DNA of 64,000 nucleotides from assembly GCF_021183825.1 (NCBI RefSeq), contig NZ_CP089211.1:5300212-5364211 (forward strand), read 5' to 3'. This document shows positions 321 through 4,531 of the stretch, in pieces. The notes under the pieces were generated by a model that saw only the letters and a list, made by a program, of their open reading frames with translations, was not told the origin of the DNA and made no database searches. Position 1 is the first letter of the stretch, and each line of letters begins with the position of its first letter. The stretch is from Sinomicrobium kalidii. Lineage in GTDB: Bacteria; Bacteroidota; Bacteroidia; Flavobacteriales; Flavobacteriaceae. The position numbers were made by a program, and so were the translations under genes.

Positions 321-2054
321 TTATTCCAGCCTGCAATCCGACACAGAAGCCCCCGACGGTACCATAGGGAATACATTATCTTCTTTCTCCACACAAACTT
401 CAAGGAAGTAGGCTTCTTCCGATGCTATCATTTCATTGACGGCTTCATCCAGTTCTTCGCGTTTGGTCACTCTTCTCGCCGGAATATGGTATCCTTTGGC
501 AATGGTGATGAAGTCCGGGTTAATAAGTTCGGTGGAAGCATACCGTTTATCAAAGAACAGCTGCTGCCATTGACGTACCATACCGAGAAAATCGTTATTG
601 AGCACCACGATCTTCACCGGAACACGGGTCTGGAATATGGTACCGAGTTCCTGTATGGTCATCTGGTAACCGCCATCCCCGATAATGGCCACGACTTCCC
701 TTTTGGGGGCTCCCATTTTGGCTCCTATGGCCGCGGGAAGCGCATACCCCATGGTTCCCAGTCCCCCGGAAGTAATATTACTCTTGGTCCGGTTAAATTT
801 CGCATAACGGCAGGCGATCATCTGGTGTTGCCCCACATCCGAAACCACGATGGCGTCTCCGCCGGTACGTTTGTTTATCTTTTCGATCACCTCTCCCATG
901 GTCAGTTTTTCCTTTTCCGGGAAAAGGTCGTTTTTGATTACCTTATCATATTCGATCGCCTGTTTATCCTTAAACTCCCGGTGCCAGGCCTCGTGTTTGT
1001 TATCATTTATAAGGGGAAGCAAATGCTCCAGTGTTTCCCTTACATCCCCGAGCACGGCAACATCGGTTTTTACGTTCTTGTCGATCTCCGCAGGGTCAAT
1101 CTCAAAATGCACTACCCTGGCCTGTTTGGCATAGGTACTGAGATCGCCGGTAACCCTGTCGTCAAAACGCATTCCCAGGGCGATCAGCACATCGCATTCG
1201 TTGGTGAGAAGATTGGGCGCATAATTACCGTGCATCCCTACCATTCCCGTATGAAGCGGATGTTCTGTAGGCAAAGCGGAAAGTCCCAGCACAGTACTCG
1301 CCGAAGGGATCCCCGATTTTTCGATCAGCGCTTTCAATTCGGTTTCGGCCTTTCCAAGGATAATCCCCTGGCCAAATATGATAAACGGCTTTTTGGCACT
1401 GTTGATGAGTGCCGCAGCTTCTTCTATACGTGCGGGATTGATCTCCGGTTTCGGTTTATAGCTTCGTATCGCGGTACATTTTTTATAGGAAAAATCAAAT
1501 TCTTCGAACTGAGCGTTTTTGGTAATATCTATAAGCACCGGACCGGGACGGCCGGAGCGCGCAATGTAAAATGCCTTGGCAAGGGCCGTAGGGATTTCCG
1601 ACGCCCTGGTCACCTGATAGCTCCATTTGGTCACGGGAGTGGAAATACCGATAATATCGGTTTCCTGGAACGCGTCCGTCCCCAGCAAATGACGTGCTAC
1701 CTGACCGGTTATGCACACCATCGGCGTAGAATCGATCTGGGCATCGGCGATCCCGGTAATGAGATTGGTTGCCCCCGGACCGGAAGTAGCTATGGCAACC
1801 CCCACTTTCCCGGTGGCCCTGGCATATCCCTGTGCCGCGTGTGCCGCCCCCTGTTCGTGACGGGTGAGCACATGGTGCAGTTTATCCCGAAACTTATACA
1901 ATTCGTCATAAACAGGCATAATGGCTCCTCCGGGATAACCGTAAATAAGGTCTGCGCCTTCCTCCAGAAGACACCGGATCACGGCTTCCGCCCCGCTAAC
2001 CTTCATCTTTGCCGTAGTTGCCGTTTCTACTAATCTTTCTTTTAATGTTTCCAT
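321..2054 (-). CDS. ilvB: Acetolactate synthase large (catalytic) subunit
   Basis: Thiamin-diphosphate-dependent acetohydroxyacid synthase, joining pyruvate with pyruvate or 2-oxobutyrate. The 577-residue product has the three domains of the family: N-terminal PYR domain with the cofactor-activating glutamate in LTRHEQGAAHAAQG (Glu67), a central FAD/transhydrogenase-like domain, and a C-terminal PP domain with GDGGYQMTIQEL followed by NNDFLGM. The frame is open upstream to 2141, but I place the start at the ATG at 2054: the extra 29 codons (MKTHGCAFPRI...) do not look like an IlvB N-terminus and cross a palindromic repeat at 2118-2140. It is 93 bases after ilvD and is probably co-transcribed with it under the tandem attenuator upstream of ilvD. 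Confidence 0.96.
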   Translation of the reverse strand: METLKERLVETATTAKMKVSGAEAVIRCLLEEGADLIYGYPGGAIMPVYDELYKFRDKLHHVLTRHEQGAAHAAQGYARATGKVGVAIATSGPGATNLITGIADAQIDSTPMVCITGQVARHLLGTDAFQETDIIGISTPVTKWSYQVTRASEIPTALAKAFYIARSGRPGPVLIDITKNAQFEEFDFSYKKCTAIRSYKPKPEINPARIEEAAALINSAKKPFIIFGQGIILGKAETELKALIEKSGIPSASTVLGLSALPTEHPLHTGMVGMHGNYAPNLLTNECDVLIALGMRFDDRVTGDLSTYAKQARVVHFEIDPAEIDKNVKTDVAVLGDVRETLEHLLPLINDNKHEAWHREFKDKQAIEYDKVIKNDLFPEKEKLTMGEVIEKINKRTGGDAIVVSDVGQHQMIACRYAKFNRTKSNITSGGLGTMGYALPAAIGAKMGAPKREVVAIIGDGGYQMTIQELGTIFQTRVPVKIVVLNNDFLGMVRQWQQLFFDKRYASTELINPDFITIAKGYHIPARRVTKREELDEAVNEMIASEEAYFLEVCVEKEDNVFPMVPSGASVSDCRLE

Positions 2055-2117
2055 ATTAATGTTTGTTGTAACGCCAAATCTGCACGATCGCATGTTCACG
2101 ATAATAAATATCCGCGG

Positions 2118-2140
2118 GAACGCACACCCGTGCGTCTTCA
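2118..2140. repeat. Degenerate REP-like palindrome between ilvD and ilvB
   Basis: The short ilvD-ilvB spacer contains GAACGCAC-ACC-CGTGCGTCTTC, an imperfect inverted repeat whose core ACGCACNNCCGTGCGTCT is shared, with two differences, with the perfect palindrome at 7361-7388. Two copies of the same core in unrelated intergenic spaces suggest a dispersed repetitive extragenic palindrome. A copy inside an operon may act as an mRNA processing or stabilising hairpin; that is inference. Confidence 0.45.
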
Positions 2141-2147
2141 CAGGTAA

Positions 2148-3821
2148 TTAAAACTCGTCCGTAACACATCCCCGGGAGGCAGACGAAACTGTTTTGGCGT
2201 ATTTGTACAATATTCCTTTTTTTACTTTTAACGGCGGTTGTTGCCATTTGGCTTTCCGCTCTTTGAGTTCTTCTTCCGAAAGATTGACATCTATAGTATT
2301 TTTTTCTGCGTCTATCGTGATAATATCCCCGTCTTCCACCAGGGCTATATTACCACCTTCCTGAGCTTCGGGAGCAACGTGCCCCACTACAAAACCGTGA
2401 GACCCTCCGGAAAACCGTCCATCGGTGATAAGCGCCACATCTTTGCCAAGCCCCGCTCCCATAATGGCCGACGTAGGTTTGAGCATTTCAGGCATTCCCG
2501 GGCCTCCTTTGGGACCTTCGTAGCGGATAATCACCACATCTCCTTTCTTCACTTTGCCGTCCTTTATACCGGTATTGGCTTCATCTCCCCCGTTAAACAC
2601 CTTAGCCTTACCGGTAAAATTCAACCCTTCTTTCCCGGTGATCTTGGCAACCGCCCCTTCTTTGGCGAGATTACCGTAAAGAATACGGATATGCCCCGTT
2701 TCCTTGATCGGCCGGTCCAGCGTCCTGAGAATATCCTGTCCTTCTTCCAGGTCGGGAAGCCCGGCAAGGTTTTCGGCCAGTGTTTTCCCGGTTACAGTAA
2801 GGCAATCGCCGTGAAGCATTCCTTCTTTCAGCATATATTTCAAAACCGCAGGAACCCCGCCTATCTTGTGCAGGTCCTCCATAACATACTTTCCGCTGGG
2901 CTTCAGGTTGGCCAGTAAAGGTGTATTATCACTTATCCGTTTAAAGTCGTCCAATGTAAAATCTACTTCCGCTGCATTGGCTATGGCCATAAAATGCAGT
3001 ACGGCATTCGTAGACCCTCCCAGGACCGTTACTGTGCGAAAGGCGTTCTCCAGCGACTTCCGGGTTACTATATCTCTGGGTTTAATATCGTTCTCCAACA
3101 GGTTCCGCAACACTTTCCCCGCCGCAATACAGTCTTCCTTTTTACCGTCGTTAACCGCCGGGATAGAGGAATTATAAGGCAATGACATTCCCATGGCCTC
3201 TATTGCAGATGCCATGGTATTGGCGGTGTACATACCACCACATGCGCCCGCACCAGGACATGCTTTATGAATTATACTTTTGTAATCTTCTTCACTGATG
3301 CTTCCGGCAACCTTACTCCCCCAGGCTTCGAAAGCAGAAATAATGTCGAGTTTTTCACCTTTGTGACATCCGGGGGAAATAGTTCCTCCATAAACCAATA
3401 CGGAAGGGCGATTCAGGCGTAACAGCGCCATTAATGCCCCGGGCATGTTCTTATCACATCCTACCACGGTGACCGCTCCGTCATAACTCATCCCCTGGAC
3501 GACCGTTTCAATAGAGTCGGCTATGAGATCCCTGGAAGGAAGTGAATAACGCATTCCCTGTGTTCCGTTGGAGATACCGTCACTTATTCCGATGGTGTTA
3601 AAAATAAGTCCTACAAGGTCGGCTTCTTCCGTACCTTTTTTTACATACTCGGATAAACCGTTAAGATGCATGTTACAAGGATTTCCTTCATAACCTGTGC
3701 TCGCAATGCCAATCAGCGGTTTCTTCAAATCGTCATCGCTCAGGCCTATGGCGTGTAACATTGCCTGCGCGGCAGGTAGTGTAGGATCTTGGGTAACTTG
3801 TTTACTATACGTGTTTAACAT
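2148..3821 (-). CDS. ilvD: Dihydroxy-acid dehydratase
   Basis: Dehydrates 2,3-dihydroxy-isovalerate and 2,3-dihydroxy-3-methylvalerate to the keto acids that become valine and isoleucine; the valine keto acid also feeds PanB, encoded at 31.6 kb. The 557-residue protein is full length for the IlvD/Edd family. Three Fe-S cluster cysteines are visible: Cys49 in GNPCNMH, Cys122 in GCDKNMPG and Cys194 in [12 protein letters not shown]. The C-terminal [15 protein letters not shown] signature is intact. It is the first structural gene of the operon and follows a roughly 500-base leader with two Ile/Val-rich leader peptides and terminators, so its transcription is probably attenuated by branched-chain aminoacyl-tRNA supply. 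Confidence 0.97.
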
Positions 3822-4008
3822 TATTTAATAAAAATTTATTTTCCCTGTTATACTTTACGATCAGCTAAATTATTTGATATAAAATCTCCAGTTTTTTAAC
3901 ATTATCCCTGTTTTTTAAACTCAACACCCACTGTTGGTATTTACGATACTGATTTACAGAATTTTATATCACTTCTTCTTATCATATCCAAAATGAAAGA
4001 AAAGTCGA

Positions 4009-4053
4009 AAAACAAAGGGCCCGTATCTTCCTTCCGGTTGATACAGGCCCTTT
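4009..4053 (-). terminator. ilv attenuator terminator 2
   Basis: Read on the minus strand, AAAGGGCCUGUAUC (4053-4040) pairs over 14 positions, with one G-U, with GAUACGGGCCCUUU (4027-4014) around a 12-base loop, followed by UUUGUUUUUC. The 5' arm can alternatively pair perfectly over 10 bases (CTGTATCAAC, 4046-4037) with GTTGATACAG (4080-4071), which overlaps the stop codon of leader peptide 2. These mutually exclusive pairings are the classic layout of a translation-coupled attenuator. Confidence 0.85.
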
Positions 4054-4075
4054 TTAGCGGCATATCATTACTGTA

Positions 4076-4132
4076 TCAACTCCGGAGGAAGTGAATAATG
4101 ACAATACCGATAATGACTATTCTTTGTATCAT
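4076..4132 (-). CDS. ilv operon leader peptide 2 (18 aa, Ile-rich)
   Basis: A short frame reads MIQRIVIIGIVIIHFLRS: seven Ile, two Val and one Leu in 18 residues. Its TGA stop lies within GTTGATACAG, the anti-terminator arm that can sequester the 5' side of terminator 2. The last Ile codon (codon 13) is about 14 bases before that arm. A ribosome stalled there would leave the arm free to pair (read-through), while one reaching the stop would cover it (termination). Composition, position and alternative RNA folds together make a regulatory leader peptide the best explanation. No recognisable ribosome-binding site precedes it, which is normal in this phylum. Confidence 0.85.
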   Translation of the reverse strand: MIQRIVIIGIVIIHFLRS

Positions 4133-4154
4133 TTTTACAGGTCGTTTTCTTAGA

Positions 4155-4196
4155 ATCAAAATAAAAAGCCTTCCCTGGGGATCAAGGGAAGGCTTT
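4155..4196 (-). terminator. ilv attenuator terminator 1
   Basis: On the minus strand AAAGCCTTCCCT (4196-4185) and AGGGAAGGCTTT (4176-4165) form a perfect 12-bp stem with an 8-base loop, followed by TTTTTATTTT. It follows leader peptide 1 by about 30 bases. CCTGGGATGG (4228-4219), immediately after that peptide's stop, resembles the 3' arm (8 of 10 bases) and can pair imperfectly with the 5' arm, a plausible but weaker anti-terminator than in attenuator 2. Confidence 0.85.
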
Positions 4197-4228
4197 GTGC
4201 AAAATATTGTTTGGCATACCATCCCAGG

Positions 4229-4288
4229 TCAAGGTGAAATAATCACCACGACAATGACAGCAATGATATGAATGAAATTCCTTTTCAT
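4229..4288 (-). CDS. ilv operon leader peptide 1 (19 aa, Ile/Val-rich)
   Basis: A short frame reads MKRNFIHIIAVIVVVIISP: six Ile and four Val in 19 residues, including a VIVVVII run. It is followed immediately by a candidate anti-terminator arm and then by terminator 1. The control codons match the end products of the downstream ilvD-ilvB-ilvN genes. It precedes a second leader peptide/terminator unit, so transcription would have to pass both attenuators to reach ilvD. Confidence 0.85.
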   Translation of the reverse strand: MKRNFIHIIAVIVVVIISP

Positions 4289-4531
4289 TTCTCGTACAAT
4301 ATTAATACGTTTTTTTCGGAAATAAAACACCTCCTCATAATTTTTACAGGATTCGTAAAAAAATACACGGACACCTTCGTAATTTCCGGTTATTCATCAA
4401 ATACATTACGACTATTGCAGAACGTATTTCCATGAGCATTGGCAAACGGATATTTAATGAAGTAACGCAATGGGTTCAGAGGGGTTAAAACAAAACCTTC
4501 CTCCATATCATCTGCAGGAAGGCGGAGTTCT

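Follow-up and report, generated by a model that had tools for sequence, protein, structure and literature searches.

Can two leader-peptide attenuators stand in series before one operon, and if so, do they answer to the same amino-acid signal? The question was raised by the DNA upstream of ilvD in Sinomicrobium kalidii. The classical amino-acid leader-peptide attenuators are those of the trp, his, thr and ilv operons of enterobacteria. We analysed a stretch of 64,000 nucleotides (contig NZ_CP089211.1, positions 5,300,212 to 5,364,211; hereafter the window), in which an original prediction, made from the letters of the sequence, had proposed two such attenuators before ilvD that would act as multiplicative gates, the first weighted towards Val and the second towards Ile.

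Two leader units upstream of ilvD in the window

The operon to be controlled begins with ilvD, and its parts within the window are listed in Table 1. The genes after ilvB, which lie beyond the window in the same orientation, are ilvN, ilvC, a methyltransferase-like gene and ilvA (operon ilvD-B-N-C-ilvA). The genes from ilvB to ilvA scored over the cut-offs of TIGR00118, TIGR00119 (57.3 bits, cut-off 56.9), NF003557 and NF006390, and the methyltransferase-like gene between ilvC and ilvA reached no model cut-off.

Table 1. Genes, leader elements and candidate promoters of the ilvD locus (window coordinates)
Feature	Position	Strand	Remark
ilvD, first gene of the controlled operon	2148..3821	minus	TIGR00110 757.7 bits, cut-off 618
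ilvB	321..2141	minus	open frame from 2141, true start may be internal
Candidate promoter P1, -7 box TAATATTG (5/6 of TAnnTTTG)	4297..4304	minus	8 nt before the unit-1 ATG
Leader peptide 1 MKRNFIHIIAVIVVVIISP, including stop	4229..4288	minus	frame common to six same-genus genomes (L001-L006)
Unit-1 antiterminator region, type A	4205..4231	minus	overlaps and follows the stop; pairs with the terminator 5' side, or with leader codons (1:2)
Terminator 1, type A, GCCTTCCC...GGGAAGGC with U-rich tail	4155..4196	minus	hairpin 4196-4165, -18.9 kcal/mol
Leader peptide 2 MIQRIVIIGIVIIHFLRS, including stop	4076..4132	minus	unit 2 in all six same-genus genomes
Unit-2 antiterminator, type B, GTTGATACAG	4071..4080	minus	stop codon TGA inside
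Terminator 2, type B, GGGCCTGTATCAAC...GATACGGGCCC with U-rich tail	4009..4053	minus	hairpin 4053-4014, -25.9 kcal/mol
Conserved motif TTGGATATGATAA, after terminator 2 and before P2	3979..3991	minus	family motif count and same-genus conservation
Candidate promoter P2 block	3865..3924	minus	box TAATTTAG (5/6) at 3872-3865; GTTAAAA at 3900-3894, family spacing

The two Ile/Val-rich frames read exactly as proposed, with Ile/Val codons at 10/18 positions after the start in leader 1 and at 9/17 in leader 2. A terminator follows each frame, and the ends originally given for the two terminators (4155 and 4009) are those with the U-rich tails included. The antiterminator of unit 2 is the exact complement of CTGTATCAAC (4046-4037) in the 5' arm of terminator 2, as had been noticed before; the corresponding duplex of unit 1, between its antiterminator region and the 5' side of its terminator, was calculated at -11.6 kcal/mol. 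Compared with 100 dinucleotide shuffles, the fold of the whole 301-nt leader had z = -5.8.

A simple terminator consensus scan found terminator 1, missed terminator 2 and returned 12 sites in 8 kb where 9.9 were expected, a number so near to expectation that the scan alone proves nothing. The unit finder described below also gave background hits over the whole window. The argument is therefore carried by conservation and not by the find in a single sequence.

Conservation of the units in the Flavobacteriaceae

A unit was defined as a frame 12-32 aa long in which Ile/Val/Leu number at least 7 and make up at least 35%, followed by a terminator hairpin with an energy of -8 kcal/mol or lower that starts at most 85 nt past the stop. 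The finder was applied to the final 700 nt of each of 221 distinct regions upstream of ilvD in Flavobacteriaceae, which were left from 235 gathered regions after 6 (other IlvD class, or cut by a contig end) and 8 duplicates had been taken out. The sample was composed of 80 named loci that are the best matches to the IlvD of the window, and hence biased towards its relatives, 29 loci from a set of 40 related genomes, and 26 + 100 loci taken from the 195 genomes that matched among 249 drawn evenly over the family. With the finder fixed, at least one unit was detected on the forward strand in 105/221 regions and at least two in 26/221. On the reverse strand one unit was found in 20/221 regions and two in 0/221, and dinucleotide shuffles gave 14/1105 and 0/1105, respectively.

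Two types of terminator were distinguished. Type A is GCCTTCC...GGAAGGC, with CCCTT variants in Aquimarina, and type B is CCTGTATCA...TGATACAGG. The stop codon TGA opens the antiterminator TGATACAG in most type-B units; in most type-A units the antiterminator comes after the stop. Six hairpins of neither type were dropped, leaving 25 regions with two typed units. The typed states of the 221 regions were 119 without a unit, 41 single B, 36 single A, 19 A-B and 6 A-A. Type A preceded type B in 19/19 two-type pairs, and the order B-A occurred in none of the 221 regions. All six A-A loci came from Aquimarina records. Because the finder gave no unit in 119/221 regions and one in 77/221, control in the Flavobacteriaceae does not require the tandem. 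In 17/119 regions without a unit, a frame on the same strand ended no more than 130 nt from ilvD; several of these frames had ilvE-like ends.

Both units were present in 6/6 same-genus (Sinomicrobium-like) genomes, the genome of the window included. Column invariance among these six was 58% for leader 1, 33% for leader 2 and 8% for the spacer between the units. Farther out, R1 and R2, the covariance models of the two types, each run against 100 family genomes, placed an A unit directly before a B unit in 13 genomes, of which 8 had loci in the models (G000, G002, G041, G050, G079, G083, G097 and G102) and 5 did not (G018, G099, G103, G110 and G113). In G018, G099 and G110 the pair precedes an ilvE-like gene (named from its sequence) and ilvD, so that a census anchored on ilvD counts too few. 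In G113 three units, one A-like and two B-like, precede an ilvE-like gene and ilvD (L319, contig C40 15153-15549). The B-like copies are near-identical, lie about 134 nt apart and have identical terminators; judged from this likeness, the third unit is a recent tandem duplication.

On an unrooted IlvD gene tree of 124 loci, in which 47/120 inner branches were unsupported and loci L138-L237 (60 nt of gene) were left out, the A-B state was scattered (8 changes), and the five states together took 40 changes against a shuffled mean of 64.6. The scattered A-B states may come from repeated loss of an old A-B pair or from repeated gain. Reading ancestry from this tree was rejected, as gain and loss are indistinguishable on an unrooted gene tree with that many unsupported branches.

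In the genome of the window, R1 and R2 recovered the ilvD leader at E ~1e-13 (150 candidates scored per search), and besides this leader and its antisense no other copy came under E 0.03 in these searches. The two best further R2 matches (E at or above 0.03), both next to frames that were called TonB-like by their sequence, contained no unit by the finder. The short region upstream of leuA (L238:5343-5497, near the ilv operon, named from sequence) held no leader-plus-terminator unit. A comparable leader for the leu operon was rejected in this genome: a Leu/Ile-rich frame lies before leuA, but the finder gave no terminator.

Each unit can adopt three alternative pairings, namely 1:2 (the Ile/Val codons with the antiterminator), 2:3 (the antiterminator with the terminator 5' arm) and 3:4 (the terminator). 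They were scored in alignments A1 and A2, which held 51 type-B and 48 type-A units (9/60 type-B and 19/67 type-A units were left out for frame length, close similarity or by choice). The terminator helix was paired in 97.7% of cells in type B, with 7/13 pairs changed on both sides, and in 92.5% of cells in type A, with 9/10 pairs changed on both sides. The 1:2 pairing taken together with the terminator was formed in 79.7% of cells in type B (both sides changed in 24/37 pairs; slid controls 37-45%) and in 83.8% in type A (24/32 pairs; slid controls 41-55%), a control in which the aligned structures are favoured since they were taken from single members. Within the 1:2 hairpin of type B, the outer helix was weak (46.7% of cells) and the inner helices were strong (86.5% and 89.9%). 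The antiterminator helix of 8 pairs in type B was formed in 96.6% of cells (slid controls 14-42%), and that of 6 pairs in type A in 85.3% (slid controls 52-67%), under the same favourable comparison. Covariation of the 2:3 pairing was weak: 2/8 pairs were changed on both sides in type B, which was matched by 33/500 shuffles, and 4/6 in type A, matched by 188/500 shuffles, where a slide of -1 gave 5. Thus, of the check in relatives that the original prediction had named, the conservation of frames and alternative pairings across the Flavobacteriaceae was borne out, but compensatory change in the 2:3 helix was weak.

The units were also evaluated one by one. The fold from leader to terminator had a median z of -2.5 in both types, and z was below -2 in 44/67 type-A and 44/60 type-B units. 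The antiterminator region was paired with leader codons over at least 4 nt in 115/127 units (63/67 A, 52/60 B). For single units, the antiterminator duplex was better than that of shuffled segments (p 0.05) in just 34/67 type-A and 43/60 type-B units. The antiterminator preferred the arm of its own type over that of the other in 43/67 A and 59/60 B units. In the A-B pairs, the antiterminator of unit 2 preferred its own terminator in 19/19 cases (medians -10.1 vs -3.7 kcal/mol) and that of unit 1 in 15/19 (-9.2 vs -6.7 kcal/mol). In the Aquimarina A-A pairs the antiterminators hardly discriminated (unit 1 4/6, unit 2 2/6).

The position of the regulatory codons was then compared with that of the antiterminator. 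In type A the fraction of Ile/Val/Leu codons fell from 0.78 at codon -4 to 0.37 at codon -3 from the stop, and in type B from 0.78 at codon -5 to 0.30 at codon -4, so that over 127 units the run of these codons ended at codon -4 and codon -5 before the stop, respectively. The antiterminator started at a median of +2.5 nt (A) and -1 nt (B) from the first base of the stop. As the two shifts match, the distance from the last Ile/Val/Leu codon to the antiterminator was alike in both types, with medians of 13 nt (A) and 14 nt (B) and an interquartile range of about 9-15; the medians were taken from the 54/67 A and 55/60 B units whose duplex was at least 2 kcal/mol better than shuffles. A stalled ribosome reaches over 13-14 nt. 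The spacing found by this sequence comparison is what the stalled-ribosome model requires, and the conserved pairing together with the spacing agrees with the proposal that the antiterminator is placed where a stalled ribosome would free it and a terminating ribosome would cover it.

Poly-asparagine leaders (e.g. MRNNNNNNNFNNPNY) with a CCTTCC terminator were observed directly before GatC-like and GatA-like amidase frames. They were present in 8/10 R2 side-hit regions examined (L309, L310 and L312-L317, from genomes G091, G064, G054, G069, G056, G090, G092 and G024). In the pieces of L309, where Pfam was run, the GatA-like frame was assigned to PF01425, and the GatC-like frame scored 21.4 bits with PF02686, below the cut-off of 23. 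These leaders are candidates for an Asn-sensing attenuator on a tRNA amidotransferase operon. A His-run leader, MNTQLHHHHSHICSQANRK, with a terminator was observed upstream of hisG (PF01634) at L311 (genome G083, contig C38 46333-46448).

Promoter-like boxes and the weighing of alternative readings

The -7 consensus of Bacteroidota is TAnnTTTG (PMC7366714). At 24/25 tandem loci a box with at least 5/6 of it lay within 40 nt upstream of the ATG of unit 1, and all of these boxes started at -17 to -13; shuffled sequences had such a box anywhere in those 40 nt at a rate of 0.54. Single-B leaders carried a box at -12 or -13 in 34/41 cases. Before unit 2 the boxes were unplaced and no commoner than in shuffles (11/25 vs 0.57), and a separate unit-2 promoter was thus unsupported. 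A P1-like box before unit 1 with none placed before unit 2 indicates that the units lie in series. Since the P1 box stands so close to the unit-1 ATG, unit 1 is probably almost leaderless. Among the six same-genus genomes the P1 stretch (4322-4300) was only 22% column-invariant, and the case for P1 therefore depends on where the box lies throughout the family.

Each unit has by its sequence the parts that make a leader-peptide attenuator: a frame rich in codons for the product, an intrinsic terminator, an exclusive antiterminator and a 1:2 protector. An attenuation mechanism is well supported by the comparative sequence evidence. Charged tRNA-Ile and tRNA-Val would be the signal for both units. 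When both are plentiful, the ribosome would reach the leader stop and cover the antiterminator, and the terminator would form. When either is short, the ribosome would stall at the Ile/Val codons, which are the 5' strand of the hairpin that otherwise holds the antiterminator; the antiterminator set free in this way would pair with the terminator 5' arm, and the polymerase would read on. As a polymerase starting from P1 must clear both units to reach ilvD, the read-through probabilities are predicted to multiply, which would lower the basal level and steepen the response to starvation. Beyond the original prediction, the analysis added the 1:2 pairing, the probably near-leaderless unit 1, the occurrence across the family and the finding that the two terminator types keep a fixed order.

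An ilvD transcription start downstream of 4009, which the original prediction had counted against itself, is predicted by the promoter-like P2 block. The region before ilvD was compared in 100 regions (2/102 unit-bearing loci were too short in this region). A 6/6 TAnnTTTG lay within the last 110 nt before ilvD in 48/100 regions against 0.106 in shuffles, and of the 98 regions with a box of at least 5/6 near ilvD, 32 had it starting at -61 to -64. The consensus of the 46/100 regions whose 6/6 box starts between -75 and -40, of which 38 are single-B loci, has GTTAAAA 28 nt before TAnnTTTG. The P2 pattern, which was written after the consensus had been seen and has a rate below 0.01 in shuffles, was present in 31/41 single-B, 7/19 A-B, 2/36 single-A, 0/6 A-A and 19/119 unit-less regions. 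The seven A-B regions with the pattern are the six same-genus loci and L211, leaving 1/13 outside the genus. In the genus, some ilvD transcription probably starts from candidate P2, downstream of both terminators, so the AND-like gate would apply to the P1 transcript only. The predicted multiplicative gating accordingly keeps its series arrangement and would be limited to P1 transcripts. Between terminator 2 and P2, 9-mers that are variants of TTGGATATGATAA (one mismatch allowed) occurred in 27-47/100 regions where 2-6 were expected, and the block around this motif (3994-3975) was 65% invariant in the six same-genus genomes. At 3991-3925 in the window, and at the homologous places in relatives, TTGGATATGATAA is followed by TGTAAATCAGTATCGTAAATA as an imperfect direct repeat. 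The two motifs may possibly be an operator.

The reading that we consider likely is that two complete ribosome-sensed transcription attenuators with the same Ile/Val signal stand in series before ilvD, and that P2 probably adds ilvD expression outside the gate. Alternatively, the main ilvD transcript might come from P2 and the attenuators might govern a minor or conditional transcript only. The P2 block is 77% invariant in the six same-genus genomes, the highest among the non-coding blocks compared, and the perfect boxes near ilvD and the P2 pattern in single-B and A-B regions speak for such a promoter. However, the pattern is not general, being rare or absent in single-A, A-A and A-B regions outside the genus; the box in the window itself is 5/6, and the attenuators are conserved nevertheless. 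We therefore regard a mainly P2-driven ilvD as rather unlikely. The number of working units can also be doubted: one unit alone might regulate, with the other a relic or a spare of little effect. Single units are common in relatives, the interspersed states on the IlvD tree fit frequent gain or loss, and unit 2 of the same-genus locus L006 starts without ATG, with GTG or TTG only. Against this, frame, pairings and terminator are kept in both units in all six same-genus genomes across a barely conserved spacer, and the A-then-B order is fixed, which makes a single working unit quite improbable.

A third alternative keeps both units at work and gives each its own amino acid, a Val gate and then an Ile gate, as a true two-input AND. 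This was the division of labour originally proposed, and the window taken alone is in its favour, with 4 Val and 6 Ile codons in leader 1 and 2 Val and 7 Ile in leader 2. Over the 25 tandem loci, the mean number of Ile codons was 6.32 in unit 1 and 6.32 in unit 2, and that of Val 2.52 and 2.60; Val was higher in unit 1 at 8 loci, equal at 9 and lower at 8. The same Ile/Val codons dominate both units, and Leu codons are few. These equal counts refute the Val-then-Ile gating, which was rejected and which we hold to be very improbable, and stacking of the same signal is the plain reading. Same-signal attenuation in series can be extended to the family as a whole: reusable units of two types would be stacked as A-B, A-A or A-B-B before ilvD or ilvE-ilvD and would sharpen one Ile/Val response, with type-specific pairing blocking cross-pairing between A and B and a bypass promoter setting the floor. 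This extension is tentative, and we would put it a little short of an even chance.

Comparison with known systems

The ilvD leader shares with the classical attenuators of enterobacteria, and with that of ilvB of corynebacteria, a leader of regulatory codons, the 1:2, 2:3 and 3:4 pairings, and a terminator before a biosynthetic operon. Unlike these, it has two complete units in series (once three in the family), a near-leaderless first unit behind a Bacteroidota-type box, and, in type-B units, a stop codon inside the antiterminator. None of the Rfam leader families (Thr_leader, Phe_leader and others) matched the leader at gathering, the best being Thr_leader with 27.9 bits vs 55, and membership in these families was rejected.

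For leader-peptide systems outside the classical groups, the literature gives several points of reference. A paper of 2010 states that ermC aside no leader-peptide system was known beyond Proteobacteria and Actinobacteria before its own case in Firmicutes, and it describes a second terminator in tandem before rimP (PMC2965389). A Bacteroid-trp motif is listed in a table of PMC2864571, and a comparative study of 2010 by Lopatovskaya and colleagues is cited in PMC4833913. In Flavobacterium psychrophilum, which belongs to the same family, amino-acid operons were reported to show 'strong clues' of leader-peptide attenuation in their upstream regions (PMC9723704); the section concerned contains no tandem arrangement, and 'ilv' is absent from the main text of that paper. 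Leader attenuation in flavobacteria has thus already been suggested in print. A search of the open-licence PMC literature gave no description of same-signal leader-peptide attenuators in series, and such stacking appears undescribed there. The arrangement before ilvD is real, conserved and little described.

Two known tandem systems are close to it. The mgtCBR leader of Salmonella carries tandem attenuators for two signals, ATP and proline, whose effects are additive, and its authors call it a singular example (PMC3641672). As described there, it resembles the ilvD leader in having two short frames in series in one leader; its two signals differ, whereas the ilvD units share Ile/Val codons and recur across the family. 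In pseudo-cooperative tandem riboswitches, independent switches for the same signal lie in series and are expected to give a steeper, more digital response, and doublets as well as triplets are known (PMC9481103). The ilvD leader has the corresponding features, complete units under one promoter as judged by the promoter-like boxes and one signal as judged by codon content, but its sensor would be a translating ribosome with a leader peptide and not an aptamer. If this is true, bacteria gain switch-like control by amino acids through stacking same-signal ribosome sensors, as tandem riboswitches do for their ligands. Since the same operon occurs in nature behind single A, single B, A-B, A-A and A-B-B units, what stacking brings can be tested directly. 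By this analogy, the best reading of the ilvD leader is that of a leader-peptide counterpart of tandem same-ligand ("pseudo-cooperative") riboswitches.
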